Part shown: in pieces, positions 3,649 to 52,025 of the stretch
How positions within the stretch are numbered: position 1 is the stretch's first letter
Layout: every line of letters begins with the position of its first letter
Source of the DNA: Chitinophagales bacterium
Lineage (GTDB): Bacteria > Bacteroidota > Bacteroidia > Chitinophagales > CAIOSU01
Reading direction: 5' to 3'
Assembly (NCBI GenBank): GCA_018401955.1
Contig: JAGYJT010000001.1
Coordinates: 124,001-188,000, forward strand
Length of the DNA stretch: 64,000 nucleotides
Translations under genes and position numbers: made by a program
The notes under the pieces: model-generated
Database searches by the model: none
What the model was told of the DNA's origin: nothing
Seen by the model: the letters and a program-made list of their open reading frames with translations, nothing else

Positions 3649-3861
3649 CCGTCATTGCGAAAGCCTGTATCCCTGCTTAAATAAACAATAAACTTAACAG
3701 GCTTGTGGCAATCCGCCTACGAATACAACCACCACACCCCACCAACCGCCAAAACCGATACCCTACAATACGTAAAAGTGCAACATTTGGAACCGGTTGC
3801 TCTCTCAGGGGATTGCCACGTCGTTCGGTTGCTTCGCAACTTCTCTCCTCGCAATGACGGG
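3649..3861. repeat. Palindromic dispersed element, copy 1
   Basis: The element begins CCGTCATTGCGAAA and ends TCGCAATGACGG, so its ends are inverted repeats. It shares internal blocks with 41799-42037: GGCAATCCGCCTACGA, GTAAAAGTGCAACATTTG and CTCTCTCAGGGGATT. A partial extra end (CGCCATTGCGAAAACC) lies at 3623-3640. It overlaps the 3' end of the minus-strand gene at 3677-4429 and supplies that gene's last codons and stop. No transposase is encoded, so it resembles a MITE-like or REP-like element. Confidence 0.7.
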
Positions 3862-12956: not shown

Positions 12957-15296
12957 ATGGCCGTTTTGCGGACAATATCCTACATCTTTTTGGTTTGTGC
13001 AAGCCTGCTTTTTCTTTCAGGCTGCGCCAACACTCGTTTTTTGCGAGATGGGGAGGTATTGTTTAAGGCCAACAAGGTGCTCTATGTTGAACAAGAACCC
13101 GAATCGAAACCCAAGGCCTTATCTGCAGAGCTGAAAGAGATTAGCCAGCTGCAACCCAATAATAAGTTTTTGGGCGTGGCGCAAACGCGCTTATGGTTTT
13201 ACAATGTAGCCAGCCGCCACAAGCAAAACAAGTTTAGGTTTTGGATGAAGGAAAAAATTGGTGAACCACCGGTTATTTATGATTCTACCTACGCTACCAA
13301 GTCTACGCTGCTAATGGAGAACTACTTGGTAAACAACGGGTACTTTTATGCGAATGTAGATTACAAAACGGCCATTAAGCGCAAAAAAGCCACGATAGTT
13401 TATCTGGTTGATCTAGGCGATGTGTACCGGGTAAACAACATCAAGTTTCCGGCACCCACTAACCCCATCAACCAAATTATACAAAACAATAAAAAAGAGA
13501 CCGTAATGGTGCCTTGCGAACCGTTCAAGGTATCGGTATTAAAGGACGAACGGGAGCGCATAGCCAAAGACCTGCAAAACGAAGGATACTTTTACCTCAG
13601 CCGCGAATATGTAACCTTTGACCTGGATAGTAACAATAGCACCAAACTGGTAAATGTGGGGATAAAAATCAATCCGCCAAGCGACACCAGCCAACATGAG
13701 ATATACTACATCAATAAGGTGTACGTGCATACCGATTACTCCATTGAGCAATTTAAGAGCGAAGTAACGTTGGATACCTTTACGGTAAACGAGTACCATT
13801 TTGTATACGAAGACCTAAAATACCGCACCAACATACTAATAGGTGCCATCCACTTTGAGCGGGATAAAAAATATAGCCGAGTTGATTATAATGCCACACT
13901 AAACCACCTGGCCGATTTGGGGGTGTTTAGGTTTATCAATATAAAATTTGTGCCCGCCCTTGAGACCGATTCTACGGGCAAACGGTACCTTAACTGTATC
14001 ATTACCCTCACGCCATCAAAAAAACAAGAGTGGGGCATAGAGGCCAGTGCCAACAACAACACCACTTTTTTGCTGGGTATTTCGGGCACGTTTACGTACC
14101 GAAACAAAAACGTTTTTAAGGGTGCCGAGTTGCTAGAGATAAGCGCAACCACCGGCTTTGAGACCAACTTTGACCCCGGAAAGAACTTTTTTAATACCGT
14201 TGATATACGAACCAGTGCCAACCTCTATTTCAATAAGTTTATGGTGCCGTTTAAGCTCATTAAACCCGATAAAAGCACGCGCCCAAAAACCATCATCTCC
14301 ATCCGCAACAGTTTTTTGAGGCGGATAAATTACTACACGGTTTCTACTACCAACGTTTCGTTTGGATACGATTGGCGGCAAAACGAACGCATCAGGCACC
14401 GCTTTGATCCTATATCCATCAGTTTGGTGCGGGTGCTTAACCAAAGCCCAGAGTTTAGGGAGATACTAGACCGAAGCCAAACGCTCCGAACCAGTTTCTC
14501 TGAGCAGCTCATTATCGGCATGAACTATAATATTACCTGGAACAGTAAATACAATAAGTACAAACCCAGCCAATGGTACTTTTTGGGTAATATAGAAACC
14601 GCCGGAAACTTTATGCACGGCATCTATTCGTTGGTGTATATCGGCAAAGATGAACCGAAGCCCTACACCATGTTTAATGTGCCCTATGCCCAATACATAA
14701 GGCTTGATGGCGACATGCGCAACTATACCAACCTAGGGCGCAAAGCTACTTTGGTATCGAGGCTGTTTGGGGGCATAGGTGTACCATATGGCAATACCGA
14801 ATCGTTGCCATACATAAAACAGTACTTTTCGGGTGGTAGTAATGATATAAGGGCATGGCGGGTGCGCGCGCTGGGGCCGGGTTCGTTTGTGCTAGAGGGT
14901 TCTGATTTGGAAATAAGCAACCCCAACATTTTCTTTGACCAAACCGGCGATATTAAACTAGAAGCCAACCTTGAGCTGCGTTTCGATATCTACAAATTTA
15001 TTAAAGGGGCAGTGTTTTTAGATGGCGGTAACATTTGGACCCTGAAAGCCGATACCCTTAGGCCAGGTGCCAACTTTGAGGCAAACAGGTTTTATAAAGA
15101 GTTTGCATTGGGCACGGGCGTGGGCTTCCGCTTCGATTTTTCTTACTTTGTATTGCGCTTTGATATCGGCGTGCCTTTGCACGACCCCGGCTCGCCGCTC
15201 AACAACAATTGGGTAATCAAAACCTTCGACCCGCTAGATAGGGCCTGGAGGAGAAGCAACGTTATTTTCAACCTTGCCATTGGTTATCCTTTCTAG
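12957..15296 (+). CDS. tamL: BamA/TamA-family outer membrane lipoprotein (TamL-like)
   Basis: From ATG 12957 the 779-residue product starts MAVLRTISYIFLVCASLLFLSGC, a lipoprotein signal with lipobox LSGC. A TTG at 12945 would add four residues. POTRA-like repeats fill roughly residues 30-390. The C-terminal half is an Omp85-type 16-strand barrel that includes YFSGGSNDIRAWRVRALGPGS (lid-lock region) and ends in a terminal aromatic (IGYPF). A lipidated Omp85 protein is typical of Bacteroidota TamL, which works with TamB in outer membrane biogenesis. No TamB gene is adjacent here. Confidence 0.85.
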   Translation: MAVLRTISYIFLVCASLLFLSGCANTRFLRDGEVLFKANKVLYVEQEPESKPKALSAELKEISQLQPNNKFLGVAQTRLWFYNVASRHKQNKFRFWMKEKIGEPPVIYDSTYATKSTLLMENYLVNNGYFYANVDYKTAIKRKKATIVYLVDLGDVYRVNNIKFPAPTNPINQIIQNNKKETVMVPCEPFKVSVLKDERERIAKDLQNEGYFYLSREYVTFDLDSNNSTKLVNVGIKINPPSDTSQHEIYYINKVYVHTDYSIEQFKSEVTLDTFTVNEYHFVYEDLKYRTNILIGAIHFERDKKYSRVDYNATLNHLADLGVFRFINIKFVPALETDSTGKRYLNCIITLTPSKKQEWGIEASANNNTTFLLGISGTFTYRNKNVFKGAELLEISATTGFETNFDPGKNFFNTVDIRTSANLYFNKFMVPFKLIKPDKSTRPKTIISIRNSFLRRINYYTVSTTNVSFGYDWRQNERIRHRFDPISISLVRVLNQSPEFREILDRSQTLRTSFSEQLIIGMNYNITWNSKYNKYKPSQWYFLGNIETAGNFMHGIYSLVYIGKDEPKPYTMFNVPYAQYIRLDGDMRNYTNLGRKATLVSRLFGGIGVPYGNTESLPYIKQYFSGGSNDIRAWRVRALGPGSFVLEGSDLEISNPNIFFDQTGDIKLEANLELRFDIYKFIKGAVFLDGGNIWTLKADTLRPGANFEANRFYKEFALGTGVGFRFDFSYFVLRFDIGVPLHDPGSPLNNNWVIKTFDPLDRAWRRSNVIFNLAIGYPF

Positions 15297-41798: not shown

Positions 41799-42037
41799 CC
41801 GTCATTGCGAAAACCCGCATTGCAGTTAACGTGACCATTACCTTTTAAGGGTTTGTAGCAATCCCCTTACGATAAGCAGGAATGCTAATTTACCGTTAAT
41901 TCACATCATACATAACAAGTAAAAGCGCAACATTTGACACCAGCATCTCTCTCAGGGGATTACTGCAAAAGCAGTGAGAAAAGTTGCCACAAAAGCGTTT
42001 ATCGCGAAAAGCTCAAAACGCTTTTTCGCAATGACGG
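41799..42037. repeat. Palindromic dispersed element, copy 2
   Basis: Begins CCGTCATTGCGAAAA, ends TTCGCAATGACGG. It shares with copy 1 (3649-3861) the blocks GTAGCAATCCCCTTACGA, GTAAAAGCGCAACATTTG and CTCTCTCAGGGGATTAC. It fills most of the gap between the convergent porU-like and GMC oxidoreductase genes. A GGAAATTTGGAAATT run (41780-41797) precedes it. Confidence 0.7.
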
Positions 42038-46727: not shown

Positions 46728-48815
46728 ATGGTAGACAAACCTACTGGCAGAAAATTAACGGTATACTTAGCAGACCTTAGGCATGTGTTGCACGGCAGTG
46801 CTTACAACGATTCTATGCCCTTAGGTGTAGGCTATATGAAGGCCGTAATGGACGAACGTTTGCCCACGGTTAGTTCACGTATTTTTGCATTCCCAGATAA
46901 GTTAGACGAGGCCTTGCACCAGCAAATGCCCGATGTGCTGATGCTTACCAATTATATGTGGAACTGTAGCCTGAGCTACTACTACGCCCAAAAGGTAAAG
47001 CAACTAAACCCAAATGCTTTGATAGTAATGGGCGGTCCCAATTTTCCGCTGGAAGACGACCGCCGCATTGAGTTTGTGAAAGAACGCCCTGCCGTGGATA
47101 TTTATGTAACGGGCGAGGGCGACTTTATGGCAACCGACCTAGTGCAGTGGTTTATAGAGGATGGCTACAGCATTGAAAAGCTATTGCAACGCTATATACA
47201 CTCGGCAGTATACCTGCACAATGGCACATATGTGGCCACCAGCCTTAAACCCCGCTCGCGCAACTTAGATGACATCCCATCGCCCTGGCTTACGGGCATT
47301 ATGGATGAGTTTTTTGAGGATAGCTTGTTTCCTTTGTTCGAAACCAACCGCGGTTGCCCGTTTACTTGCACCTTCTGCGTGCAGGGCGTTAAGTGGTACA
47401 CCAAGGTGAGCTATTTTAGTTTGGAGCGCATTAAAGAAGAGATATACTACATCGGTAAAAAAGTGCACGAAGTAGCGCCACACATGAAAACGCTCGTAAT
47501 TGCCGACCCTAACTATGGCATGTTTGAGCGCGATATTGAGGTATCAACCTATATTGGCGAAATACAGCAGCAATACCAATACCCGCTTATAATAAATGCC
47601 ACAACTGGTAAAAACCAAGCCGAGCGGGTAATAAAATCGTTGGAGAAGGTTAACGGGGCATTGGTAATGTACTTGGCTGTGCAATCGTTGAACCATGATG
47701 TACTGGAAAACGTAAAGCGAAGCAACATACAGCTAGAGGCTTACGAAGAAATACAAACACAGATAACGGCAAGGGGTATGCGCTCCAACTCAGACCTTAT
47801 ACTGGGCTTGCCAGGAGATAGCCTTGAGTCGCATGTAGGCTCGCTGCGCAAGTTGATTGATCTTGGTACATCAAGGCTAAACAATTTTCAGGCGATATTG
47901 CTTAAAGGCTCAGAGATGGAGACTGCCGCGGTGCGCAAACAGTATGCTTACAATACCAAATACCGCCTATTGCCTAAAAGCTTTGGGGTGTATAATGGCA
48001 ATAAAGTATTTGAGGTGGAAGAAATCATCGTATCGTCGGCAGTGATGAGCTTTGACGATTACCTCACTGCCCGCAAGTACCACTTGGCCATAGGTGCATT
48101 TTGGAACCACGGTAGATTTATACCAATAGTGGAGTTTATGAACCAAAACGGCATTAGTAGTTGGGATTGGCTACATGCCGTAACCCAGGCCATGCAACAT
48201 CACGCAGGACTTACCGATTTTGTAGCACGATTTATCAAAGAAACCAAAGGCGAGCTGTTTGATACCGAAGAAGAAGCTATTGCTTTTTATCAAACCGAAG
48301 CCAACTATAAATTACTGGAGGAAGAAGGACTCGGCGACAATATTTTTTATAAATATGCGGGCTTGGCCTCATTCTGCTATTGGAAAGAAGCTACGGAGTG
48401 CGTTTTTGATGCCTCTTGGCAGCTTTTGGCAGATAAGCAATTACCCCAAGGCTTTAAGGCCCTATGGAACGATGCCATGGAGTATTATAAAAACTTGTAT
48501 GCAGCTGGCCCCAACCAACACAATTTGCTGGAAAACGCCCAGCTAACGTTAAACTTTGATATACCTCAATGGCTTACCGATGGACTGCCGCTTGCAGCCG
48601 CGCCCTATAAGTTGAATGCCCCACAAAACATGGTTACCGCTCTAGAGGCAAAACACCGCGATGCGCTGGTAGATGTAATGAAAACCAGGCCCTACAACCT
48701 GCAACACATCTCTAAGTTTGTACGCAGGGTTAACTCGGATTGGATGCGCAGGGTAACGGTTGAAAGAATGCAAAATACGGCAGCATACCCATTGGTAGCC
48801 AACCAGCCAGCGTAA
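46728..48815 (+). CDS. Cobalamin-binding-domain radical SAM protein
   Basis: The 695 residues start with a B12-binding-like domain (about 10-145: GVGYMKAVMDE, VLMLTNYMWNC, VMGGPNFPLEDD), then a radical SAM domain with CPFTCTFC (Cys210, Cys214, Cys217) binding the 4Fe-4S cluster, and DLILGLPGDS further on. The ~270-residue C-terminal extension is unusual and unrecognised. Members of this class carry out difficult methylations, rearrangements or ring formation, but the substrate cannot be inferred. The DXHXXG motif of base-off B12 binding is not obvious. Monocistronic; no biosynthetic neighbour. Confidence 0.8.
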   Translation: MVDKPTGRKLTVYLADLRHVLHGSAYNDSMPLGVGYMKAVMDERLPTVSSRIFAFPDKLDEALHQQMPDVLMLTNYMWNCSLSYYYAQKVKQLNPNALIVMGGPNFPLEDDRRIEFVKERPAVDIYVTGEGDFMATDLVQWFIEDGYSIEKLLQRYIHSAVYLHNGTYVATSLKPRSRNLDDIPSPWLTGIMDEFFEDSLFPLFETNRGCPFTCTFCVQGVKWYTKVSYFSLERIKEEIYYIGKKVHEVAPHMKTLVIADPNYGMFERDIEVSTYIGEIQQQYQYPLIINATTGKNQAERVIKSLEKVNGALVMYLAVQSLNHDVLENVKRSNIQLEAYEEIQTQITARGMRSNSDLILGLPGDSLESHVGSLRKLIDLGTSRLNNFQAILLKGSEMETAAVRKQYAYNTKYRLLPKSFGVYNGNKVFEVEEIIVSSAVMSFDDYLTARKYHLAIGAFWNHGRFIPIVEFMNQNGISSWDWLHAVTQAMQHHAGLTDFVARFIKETKGELFDTEEEAIAFYQTEANYKLLEEEGLGDNIFYKYAGLASFCYWKEATECVFDASWQLLADKQLPQGFKALWNDAMEYYKNLYAAGPNQHNLLENAQLTLNFDIPQWLTDGLPLAAAPYKLNAPQNMVTALEAKHRDALVDVMKTRPYNLQHISKFVRRVNSDWMRRVTVERMQNTAAYPLVANQPA

Positions 48816-48846
48816 GTTAAAATAAGCCGCACAAACAACCGCACAT

Positions 48847-48876
48847 AAAAAAGGCCGCACCAAAGTGGCACGGCCT
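48847..48876 (-). terminator. Terminator downstream of the CHRD-like lipoprotein gene
   Basis: Read leftward: stem AGGCCG/CGGCCT with an inner CACC/GGTG pairing, then TTTTTTATG. It lies 27 nt after the stop at 48903. No T-run follows on the plus strand, so it serves the minus-strand gene. Confidence 0.7.
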
Positions 48877-48902
48877 AGCAATTAAATCATTAGCAGATAA
48901 TA

Positions 48903-49442
48903 CTATCTAGCAAAACCACCAACTACCAAGTAAGTGGTAAGGTCTACGGTACTTATTGGCTGAGTTGGGTCGTGAGACACAAAGAAACCTGAATAAGCGG
49001 TGGTAATATAATCGTAAGAGAAATCAACCTCTTGCGATACGGTTACCGTACCCCCATTGCCTTGCGCCATTTGCACAAAAATAGCTGCATTGGGCGTTTC
49101 GTTGTAAGGCGTACCGTTTGGCGTGGTTGATGCATCGGCAGCATCGTGGGCATGCAACATGTAAGTTTGGCCATCAACGGTATTGTTTAGGGTTACCGAA
49201 ATTCGGCTGCGGTCATCATCCAGCTCTTCTACTTGCATGGTTGCAAAATAGTTGGTTGGGTGCGAACCGCTGTACTCGGTACCAGCACCTACTTGACCGG
49301 TGTTAAAGGCATACTCAAATGTTGTTGACATTTTGTCGTCGTCGTCATCTTTGCTGCAAGAAGTCATAGTAGCAGCACCTAGAAACATAACAGACATAAT
49401 CACCACCGCGCGTCTCATTCTTTCCATAGTATTCATAATCAA
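48903..49442 (-). CDS. Hypothetical lipoprotein, possibly CHRD-like
   Basis: The 179 residues begin with several Met (MIMNTMERMRRAVVIMSVMF), followed by a lipobox MTSC and an acidic run SKDDDDDK, a common Bacteroidota lipoprotein export pattern for surface exposure. The rest is beta-rich with YFATMQVEELDDDRSRISV and TYMLHAHDAADAST, vaguely like a CHRD-type domain, which is a weak call. Met3 (49436) may be the start. Function unknown. Confidence 0.6.
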   Translation of the reverse strand: MIMNTMERMRRAVVIMSVMFLGAATMTSCSKDDDDDKMSTTFEYAFNTGQVGAGTEYSGSHPTNYFATMQVEELDDDRSRISVTLNNTVDGQTYMLHAHDAADASTTPNGTPYNETPNAAIFVQMAQGNGGTVTVSQEVDFSYDYITTAYSGFFVSHDPTQPISTVDLTTYLVVGGFAR

Positions 49443-49530
49443 TTGTTTTGGTTTACACTATTCCAACGTCATGTGCCTAAAAATGTTCACTTGCGTTGTT
49501 TTGTGCTCGCCAAACAAAAGCCCCTAAGCA

Positions 49531-49580
49531 TACAATAGCGGAGGTATCAGGCGACACCTCCGCTATTGTATTTTTATTTT
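49531..49580 (+). terminator. Strong hairpin with T-tail, not matched to a gene on its strand
   Basis: A perfect 15-bp stem (TACAATAGCGGAGGT at 49531-49545 and its complement at 49556-49570) with a 10-nt loop is followed on the plus strand by TTTTTATTTT. No plus-strand gene lies upstream; both neighbours read leftward. On the minus strand no T-run follows the stem. Physically it is a terminator-like structure, but its job is unclear. Confidence 0.6.
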
Positions 49581-49594
49581 ACTAAACTAAAAAG

Positions 49595-49654
49595 TTAGTC
49601 TCTGCGGCCCATAAATATCATTACCCAATAGAGCAACATAGCCAGAGCAGCCAG
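49595..49654 (-). pseudogene. Duplicated 3' end of the YugP-type protease gene
   Basis: The 60 nt are nearly identical (about three differences) to the end of the gene at 51333-52025. They would encode its last residues LAALAMLLYWVMIFMGRRD and the stop. No other part of the gene is present. The fragment sits 7 nt beyond the end of the 49662-51188 gene. Confidence 0.8.
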
Positions 49655-49661
49655 TTTCAGG

Positions 49662-51188
49662 TTAGTTAAGCGTTATCTCGCCTACCTTGTACGACTTCAT
49701 TTTGCCACCGGTAATATCGCCACCAAATACAATGAAACGATTGGGTGTGATAGCCTCACTTGCCATAGGATACAGTATAAACCCTGTTTCGGTAGCTTTA
49801 AAGATGGCTGTCTTTTTATAGTTACCAGTAGCAAAATCAACTTCCGCTAGTACTGCATTAGCGTCGTTAAACCCTTTACACAATGCCACTTTAGTAGGAT
49901 CATAGTTATTAATGTTAAGCGCATCATCATTAAACAATAAGCGGAGGGTTTTTCCATCAAACGAATGAATATAGGAGTAGTACTGCTCACTAAAATCCAT
50001 AGACACACTTATTCTTTGCTTTTTAAGCACGTTTGTTTCCCATATAACTTTTCCAGTTTCGCTATATCTCACAATAAGAATGTTATTTGCAGTACCCGGA
50101 TTAGTTGCACCGTTGGAAGCTTGAGTAGGAGCCACCCTTTGCTCACTAATTACAATCAGTCCTCCCTCTGCCGTCGCTTCAACAGCATCTAAAAATATGT
50201 CTGGCAAAACTGCCTTCTTTGCTCCAACCATCATCCCAGCTTTCAATTGATCGGTAAATGGTGTAAATTTCTTCACAATACCTTTAACATTATTGGCGTC
50301 GTAGCTAATAAAGAATGTACCTGCGGAATACAGTCCACCACCAACTATTTTACCTCCGCCTAACGCTGCTAGTCTTAGACTTTCTATAGTATTCTCGCCT
50401 TCGTCAAATGATAAATGGGTGGCTTCGCCAACAACAGGACTAGACACTACTAAAAGCTGATAATCCTTGCCAGTAGCTTTCTTCCACTCTTTCGATTTCA
50501 CTTTGGCCTGCACAAATACATTTCCATCGTTATCCACTACCACGCTCTCAATTTCAATCTTGTTGGCTTCTTTCGGGAAACTCCAAGTCTTCTCTTGTAT
50601 CTTCTTCAACTGGCTATCAAATACCACAACCTGGAAATCATAGTTACCTTCGCCATCTAACAGCCTATACTCCCTATCATTACCTATAAATGCAAACTTG
50701 GTTCTATCCTCCGATTGGCGGATGTAGTAACCCATAAAATTCCACTGGAACGCTTTATTAGGCTTGCGCTTGCCCACTTCCACCTTATCCTTATGCTGTA
50801 GGGTGTTTAGGTCCAATTCTGTAAGATAGGTTGGCGTGGTGCCATCTTCTGCAAATTTGTTTTCGCGATAAACCTGAAACGCCTTATCATCGGTAAAATA
50901 GGTGCCATCATTGGCGTACTCGCGGGTATATCCAGCGTATGCTTTGCCCAAGTCAATGGTCTTCACAAGCTTCAGGTTCTGGTCGTACATCAAATAGCTA
51001 GTCTTGTTACCAAGGCTTTTCTCAACTATCACCGTGTTGTTCACACTGCCCAAAACATAGAAGCTCGTACTTAGCTTAAAAAACTTCTCGGTGCCTAAAT
51101 CGCCCCATGTAACTTTTATACTTGGCGCCTGCCCAAAAGCCAAAACCTGTGCAGCAATCATCAAACTCAATATCAATACCCTTTTCAT
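49662..51188 (-). CDS. Hypothetical secreted protein (508 aa)
   Basis: The signal peptide (MKRVLILSLMIAAQVLAFGQ, cleavage after FGQ) predicts export. The mature part is beta-rich with spaced segments such as YLMYDQNLKLVKTIDLG, VVVDNDGNVFVQAKV and GGLIVISEQR that resemble a beta-propeller with roughly regular blades, though no family is recognised. The C-terminus (VFGGDITGGKMKSYKVGEIT) has no T9SS tail or anchor. The gene lies between the YugP-type protease gene and a leftover copy of that gene's 3' end. Confidence 0.6.
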   Translation of the reverse strand: MKRVLILSLMIAAQVLAFGQAPSIKVTWGDLGTEKFFKLSTSFYVLGSVNNTVIVEKSLGNKTSYLMYDQNLKLVKTIDLGKAYAGYTREYANDGTYFTDDKAFQVYRENKFAEDGTTPTYLTELDLNTLQHKDKVEVGKRKPNKAFQWNFMGYYIRQSEDRTKFAFIGNDREYRLLDGEGNYDFQVVVFDSQLKKIQEKTWSFPKEANKIEIESVVVDNDGNVFVQAKVKSKEWKKATGKDYQLLVVSSPVVGEATHLSFDEGENTIESLRLAALGGGKIVGGGLYSAGTFFISYDANNVKGIVKKFTPFTDQLKAGMMVGAKKAVLPDIFLDAVEATAEGGLIVISEQRVAPTQASNGATNPGTANNILIVRYSETGKVIWETNVLKKQRISVSMDFSEQYYSYIHSFDGKTLRLLFNDDALNINNYDPTKVALCKGFNDANAVLAEVDFATGNYKKTAIFKATETGFILYPMASEAITPNRFIVFGGDITGGKMKSYKVGEITLN

Positions 51189-51274
51189 CCTTTAGTATTT
51201 TCTAGATTTACGATGCCCTAAAATATTGTTTTTCCTTTACCCTGCCAAATACTTAGCTTTAGGATTAGCGGCTA

Positions 51275-51313
51275 CAAAAAAAGGTGGGTATCTCCAAAGG
51301 AAATGCCCACCTT
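51275..51313 (-). terminator. Terminator downstream of the YugP-type protease gene
   Basis: The stem AAGGTGGG/CCCACCTT is followed on the minus strand by TTTTTTTGTAG. It lies 20 nt after the stop at 51333. Confidence 0.75.
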
Positions 51314-51332
51314 ATAGTATTATGCAAGCTAC

Positions 51333-52025
51333 TTAATCTCTGCGACCCATAAATATCATTACCCAATAGAGCAACATAGCCAGAGCAGACAGCGCTGCAA
51401 CTACATAAGTAGTGGCTGCCCATTTAAGCGCATCGTAGGCCTTATCCTTTTCCTCTTCGGTGGCTACTCGGCTGGTTTTAAGCCATACCAAGGCGCGGTT
51501 GCTGGCATCAAACTCTACTGGTAGGGTAACCAAGCTGAAAAGAAAAAATACACTATAGCAGGCAATTATGGTAAGCAACACGATATCGAAAGGAATAACA
51601 TTGAATACGATGTTGCCGATAAAGAACATACCGATAAACACAGCATTGATAACCGTACCGCTAAATTGCTGGATGGGCACCATAGCCGAACGAAACTGCA
51701 ACCAAGCATATCCTTGGGCATGTTGCACGGCATGGCCGCACTCGTGTGCCGCAACGGCAGCAGCCGCTATACTGTGCCCATCATATACATCAGGGCTAAG
51801 GTTTACCGTACGGTCGGCAGGGTTGTAATGGTCGGTAAGCCTACCTGGCACGCTAACCACCCGCACATCGTGTATATTGTTTTCGCGCAACATACGCTCG
51901 GCCACTTGCTTGCCCGACAAACCCGTCATTAAAGGTATTTTGGAGTACCGCTTAAACCGGCTCTTTAATATTTGACCAACTATTAAGCTGGCTAGCATGC
52001 TACCGATAATAATGATAAAATACAT
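51333..52025 (-). CDS. YugP-type (Zn_peptidase_2) membrane zinc metallopeptidase
   Basis: The 230 residues have four hydrophobic segments: one at the N-terminus (YFIIIIGSMLASLIVG), two in the middle (VINAVFIGMFFIGNIVFN and IVLLTIIACYSVFFLFSL) and one at the end (AALSALAMLLYWVMIFMG). The zinc motif VAAHECGHAVQH (His94, Glu95, His98) marks the Zn_peptidase_2 family. It is an inner membrane protease of unknown substrate. A TACCTTTG box precedes it. Confidence 0.9.
   Translation of the reverse strand: MYFIIIIGSMLASLIVGQILKSRFKRYSKIPLMTGLSGKQVAERMLRENNIHDVRVVSVPGRLTDHYNPADRTVNLSPDVYDGHSIAAAAVAAHECGHAVQHAQGYAWLQFRSAMVPIQQFSGTVINAVFIGMFFIGNIVFNVIPFDIVLLTIIACYSVFFLFSLVTLPVEFDASNRALVWLKTSRVATEEEKDKAYDALKWAATTYVVAALSALAMLLYWVMIFMGRRD

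Follow-up and report, generated by a model that had tools for sequence, protein, structure and literature searches.

Genomic islands can integrate into the 3′ end of protein-coding genes, regenerating the gene end and leaving the old one at the far side. At Vibrio cholerae T6SS loci, orphan immunity genes and displaced 3′ ends of effector genes have been proposed to arise by homology-facilitated illegitimate recombination (HFIR; PMC5361080, PMC9711863). Orphan Rhs 3′ ends are also among the proposed products of HFIR. Three competent species are known to carry out this type of recombination, and it also occurs at low frequency during conjugation in E. coli (PMC3240628). From Helicobacter pylori, insertion with long target duplication has been reported (Nobusato et al. 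2000, as described in PMC1643837).

A displaced gene end at the YugP locus

The locus analyzed here lies within a window of 64,000 nt, the whole stretch of DNA under study, and all coordinates count from its first letter. It contains a YugP-type zinc metallopeptidase gene, the last 60 nt of which occur once more some distance downstream. The features of the locus are as follows.

46728–48815, plus strand: B12-binding radical-SAM gene, convergent, the far flank of the empty site in congeners
48820–51260 (approximate), no strand assigned: segment missing from congeners G002, G003 and G004
48852–48876, minus strand: terminator-like hairpin 3′ of the 179-aa gene
48903–49442, minus strand: gained lipoprotein-like gene of 179 aa, patchy in the order
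49526–49575, no strand assigned: hairpin with a 19-bp stem beyond the distal copy, T-rich tail on the plus strand
49595–49654, minus strand: distal copy of the YugP 3′ end, displaced, 57 of 60 nt identical
49662–51188, minus strand: gained gene of 508 aa with an N-terminal signal-like segment
51261–51314, minus strand: terminator-like hairpin 3′ of YugP, homologous in G002–G004
51333–51392, minus strand: native YugP 3′ end (proximal copy)
51333–52025, minus strand: intact host gene, YugP-type zinc metallopeptidase of 230 aa (PF04298)

The first-pass annotation had placed a repeat of the last ~60 nt of the YugP-type gene at 49595–49654, 7 nt past the gene at 49662–51188, and both position and spacing proved exact. 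The two 60-nt sequences, stop codon included, differ at three positions (95% identity; E about 1e-20 in a self-BLAST), and a gap of 7 nt separates the end of the 508-aa ORF from the copy. The encoded tail peptides, LAALAMLLYWVMIFMGRRD and LSALAMLLYWVMIFMGRRD, each followed by the stop, are one residue apart (S to A), again as annotated. The match terminates exactly at the YugP stop codon, beyond which the flanks are unrelated. With the tail copy as query, the genome sequence yielded strong matches only to the copy itself and to the YugP 3′ end, the third-best match being just 21 nt long.

The host gene matches PF04298 (E 6.8e-82) and shares 75–85% identity with its counterparts in four congeners. 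The hairpin 3′ of it folds with −24.7 kcal/mol (z −3.0). The hairpin at 49526–49575, which has no counterpart beside YugP in the congeners, carries its T-rich tail on the plus strand and therefore gives no evidence for a transcription unit ending there. A Pfam scan of the 508-aa protein found no family above cut-off, and a structure model predicted for it without an alignment was of no use (mean pLDDT 35).

The genome also has other repeats. Near-identical GC-rich hairpins, CCGCCCTCCTGGCGGGGAGGGCG, lie on either side of a 320-aa minus-strand gene adjoining a PhoD-like gene (L102 9228–9270 and 10329–10372). Contig C1 carries, within 1.5 kb (L100 16937–18397), three copies of a dispersed repeat that is up to about 190 nt long and ends CTCTCAGGGGATTGCCAC; the end part of this repeat is also found in the window at 3767–3814 and 41914–41961.

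The empty site in congeners and the age of the duplication

The comparison set consisted of four congeners (G001–G004), all metagenome-assembled genomes. In G002, G003 and G004, YugP and its homologous hairpin directly abut the convergent radical-SAM gene. The locus is otherwise collinear, and the 508-aa gene, the tail copy, the hairpin with the 19-bp stem and the 179-aa gene (about 48820 to 51260) are all absent. The more distant congener G001 has a different gene after YugP, and no tail copy was found beside its YugP either. Since the segment is missing in G002–G004, it was most likely gained in the present lineage, judging from this comparison.

A comparison of the locus in relatives had been proposed in the first-pass annotation, which took the repeat for a scar rather than a conserved element. 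The outcome agrees with that reading, three congeners with an otherwise collinear locus lacking both the copy and the 508-aa gene. The suspicion that the 508-aa gene was gained in the same event holds insofar as the gene lies within the gained segment, but this segment is larger than supposed and includes the 179-aa gene at 48903–49442 as well. We rejected a conserved functional element on the ground that the tail copy is absent in the congeners; the tail copy itself is without function.

An age estimate from the three nucleotide differences, likewise proposed earlier, places the event in recent times. Between the two tails, 2 of 20 third codon positions and a single first position have changed, whereas the whole YugP gene diverges from those of G002–G004 at 51–53% of third positions; the event is thus recent relative to the species split, and the duplication clearly younger than it. 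At the first synonymous difference, all four congeners agree with the distal copy and the functional gene differs. At the second, the distal copy has the base of three of the four and the functional copy has T. These two sites weakly suggest two alleles rather than the simple decay of a dead copy.

The same layout at two further genes

Self-comparison of about 476 kb of the present genome (G000), window included, revealed the same layout at two further genes. Both cases held up in a scan with controls that covered 652 genes in about 826 kb. Each consists of a host gene, a secreted-type gene that is acquired in the first case and presumably so in the second, and a tail; the tails measure 51–63 nt, and all three terminate at the stop codon.

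The first is a FAD oxidoreductase gene (G000:C1:119275–120882), followed by a 372-aa PQQ-type propeller gene (PF13360) without a match in the congeners and then by the oxidoreductase tail copy (63 nt at 92% identity, 54 nt of which at 98%). In G002–G004 the oxidoreductase gene directly precedes the sequence that in G000 stands after the distal copy. Here the distal copy is therefore the resident end, and the insert comprises the proximal 3′ end and the new gene. A 9-nt repeat, TTACGGCAT, was seen by eye at both borders of the oxidoreductase insert; no counterpart was noticed in the other cases.

In the second, the PyrF gene (G000:C66:23534–24352) is followed by a 135-aa lipoprotein-like gene and a 51-nt PyrF tail copy, which is decayed (90% identity) and contains an in-frame stop. 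A short element, CCCCCACTCGTCCTCGTC, recurs on either strand near pyrF in several congeners (G000:C66:23000; G004:C14:9746; G001_C9 segment 18573).

These cases bear on the possibility that the pattern was made during assembly, by joining sequence from two strains that differ at the YugP end, one having the 508-aa gene behind it and the other the 179-aa gene. The genome is a draft of 153 contigs with 79% completeness, and repeats of 51–63 nt are similar in length to assembly word sizes. Such an origin is nevertheless highly improbable: the copies are not identical, the intervening gene is full length in the layouts seen, and the PyrF copy, with its in-frame stop, is not a working strain variant. 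The decayed PyrF copy also argues against the pattern as a whole being a product of assembly.

In G000 the scan controls turned up no copies outside ORFs when internal segments were searched for on either side, 5′ ends downstream or 3′ ends upstream. The control of 5′ ends searched upstream yielded three weaker matches, one of which (G000:C64:12530–12582) is apparently a true 5′ remnant. This remnant, consisting of a ribosome-binding site and first codons (G000:C64:12530–12590; L105), lies about 1.2 kb upstream of the gene at 13651–14355 and is a mirror image of the 3′ remnants. A fourth 3′ match in the G000 scan is 24 nt long, lies beside a transposase-like ORF and differs in kind from the three tails. 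It is an exact direct repeat, ACCGTTGAAGTTGGCGGTAAGCGC, on both sides of an ORF named IS110-like by eye, which sits within the 3′ portion of a lipoprotein-like gene (G000:C2:40076–42051; L189).

In the congeners, a scan of 1.15 Mb of G001, G003 and G004 (810 genes) found no tails like the three; its only 3′-end match outside an ORF was 21 nt long and adjoined its own gene. By estimate, 3 of 652 against 0 of 810 is not significant, and we therefore do not claim that the present genome is special. The similar lengths of the copies may reflect the loss of longer repeats by recombination together with non-detection of shorter ones.

Possible local rearrangement or insertion into the gene end

The recurrence also bears on the mechanisms first suggested, namely unequal recombination, tandem duplication with deletion, or gene insertion into a duplicated copy. 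The reading of the repeat as a scar of recent gene gain stands; its explanation by these local events is less supported, given that the layout recurs at two unrelated genes. At the YugP locus alone, local exchange is possible. A tandem duplication of YugP together with the downstream gene, followed by a deletion that removed the second YugP except for its final 60 nt, would account for two copies similar in sequence and in the same orientation. We consider it quite unlikely, as it takes two events, with a deletion ending within 7–11 nt of a complete 508-aa gene and the same coincidence at two other genes, and it leaves the unrelated sequence right after the stop unexplained. Because the same layout occurs at two unrelated genes, with a complete gene in between and a copy ending at the stop, import from a donor fits better than local unequal exchange.

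Another reading is an insertion directed to the gene end. A small element using the gene 3′ end as its attachment site, or an insertion with long target duplication as described in H. pylori (PMC1643837), would regenerate the end of the host gene and leave the old one at the far side. This matches the oxidoreductase case exactly, and the similar repeat lengths (51–63 nt) and the stop-codon ends in three cases are in its favor. At YugP, however, the ancestral flank is on the wrong side, unlike at the oxidoreductase, where it follows the distal copy. Moreover, ORF inspection and Pfam scans found no integrase or other recombinase in the inserts, and the three target sequences are unrelated. On balance, such an insertion is unlikely.

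Distribution of the gained genes

For the 508-aa protein, a close-relative search of 84,980 genomes gave no confirmed relative. Within the order it has distant relatives only (best matches at 29% identity), and its C-terminus aligns with the ends of these homologs. The 179-aa protein has relatives, mostly at 47–56% identity, in a few of 398 order genomes. In the order genomes listed with relatives of both (G078, G161 and G389), the two are on different contigs. The two genes thus have unlike distributions, both patchy, and together with their separate contigs this suggests that two acquisitions probably meet at the tail copy.

The position of the copy at the border of two genes with different distributions would also suit template switching during repair, in which the YugP end was copied as filler between two foreign fragments bearing the 508-aa and 179-aa genes. 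We see only a slim chance for this. Filler has no reason to stop at the stop codon, as the copies do in three cases, and the synonymous differences at YugP lie in the functional gene.

The plasmids and viral contigs searched contained no relatives of the 508-aa protein, and the viral contigs searched none of the 179-aa protein; on these grounds a mobile-element origin of the gained genes was rejected. No donor of the gained DNA was found in the genome, plasmid or viral searches. A diversity-generating retroelement, with a template or variable repeat at a gene 3′ end, was set aside, as the insert lacks a reverse transcriptase and the differences are not adenine-biased.

Proposed import guided by homology

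What the observations directly support is a gained segment, a displaced tail, a recent date, recurrence at two genes and, in one of them, an ancestral flank past the distal copy. For the origin of the tail, we give about an even chance to displacement from a resident YugP allele, whose 3′ end was left behind by homology-anchored donor integration, either one-sided or by a single crossover. The donor DNA, presumably from a related strain, would have carried a YugP end, the terminator and the 508-aa gene, and would have been anchored by its homology to YugP. Its other end may then have joined about 57–60 nt before the resident stop codon by HFIR; alternatively, circularized donor DNA could have entered through one crossover within the YugP 3′ end. 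The resulting order would be an intact YugP, the terminator, the new gene and then the former YugP tail, behind which its own hairpin and 179-aa gene would follow; the 179-aa gene would already have been resident before the import.

At YugP the congener-like ancestral terminator follows the proximal copy, a polarity opposite to that at the oxidoreductase. One event into an ancestral-type locus is therefore insufficient, and two steps are needed. In the resident strain, YugP would have to be followed by the hairpin and then the 179-aa gene, and in the donor the ancestral terminator by the 508-aa gene. Among the genomes compared, neither arrangement was seen.

As expected for HFIR, acquired genes absent from the congeners directly adjoin both YugP and the oxidoreductase. 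The microhomologies reported for HFIR span 3–10 bp; the words shared at the insert borders here are no longer than chance. ComEC and DprA families are present in the genome, which is compatible with DNA uptake but not specific, such competence families being near-universal, E. coli included.

A more far-reaching reading, which we regard as improbable, is that single genes for secreted proteins are repeatedly added behind the core genes of this lineage by a semi-specific route, amounting to gene-cassette mobility without a cassette-borne recombinase. The last 50–60 nt of the host gene would then be the landing site, regenerated up to the stop.

Relation to known systems

The scar of gene acquisition is real, recent and of a known kind; its recurrence at unrelated core genes adds interest. 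It appears to reflect an ordinary route of gene gain in these bacteria, though one seldom caught; with three cases in about 650 genes of a single genome, the route does not seem rare in the group. Orphan tails mark the exact join between an acquired gene and the resident allele it displaced. They are a cheap genomic signature of one-sided gene import outside the toxin/immunity loci from which it is known, for which gene 3′ ends could be scanned systematically.

With genomic islands at gene 3′ ends, the locus shares the regenerated gene end and the old end left at the far side. It differs from them in having no recombinase, inserts of one or two genes and a new target each time. As in the H. 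pylori case described in PMC1643837, a direct repeat flanks a gene where another genome has an uninterrupted locus. In contrast to that account, in which the insertions are often tied to restriction-modification genes, the repeats here end exactly at the stop, and the ancestral flank of YugP is proximal. From HFIR at the Vibrio T6SS loci, the present cases are set apart by their anchors, which are ordinary chromosomal genes, by a leftover of about 60 nt of the same gene and by having no effector or immunity function. They resemble it in that the new gene stands directly 3′ of a conserved anchor with the resident 3′ end pushed behind it, and in that several such events are possible at one locus.
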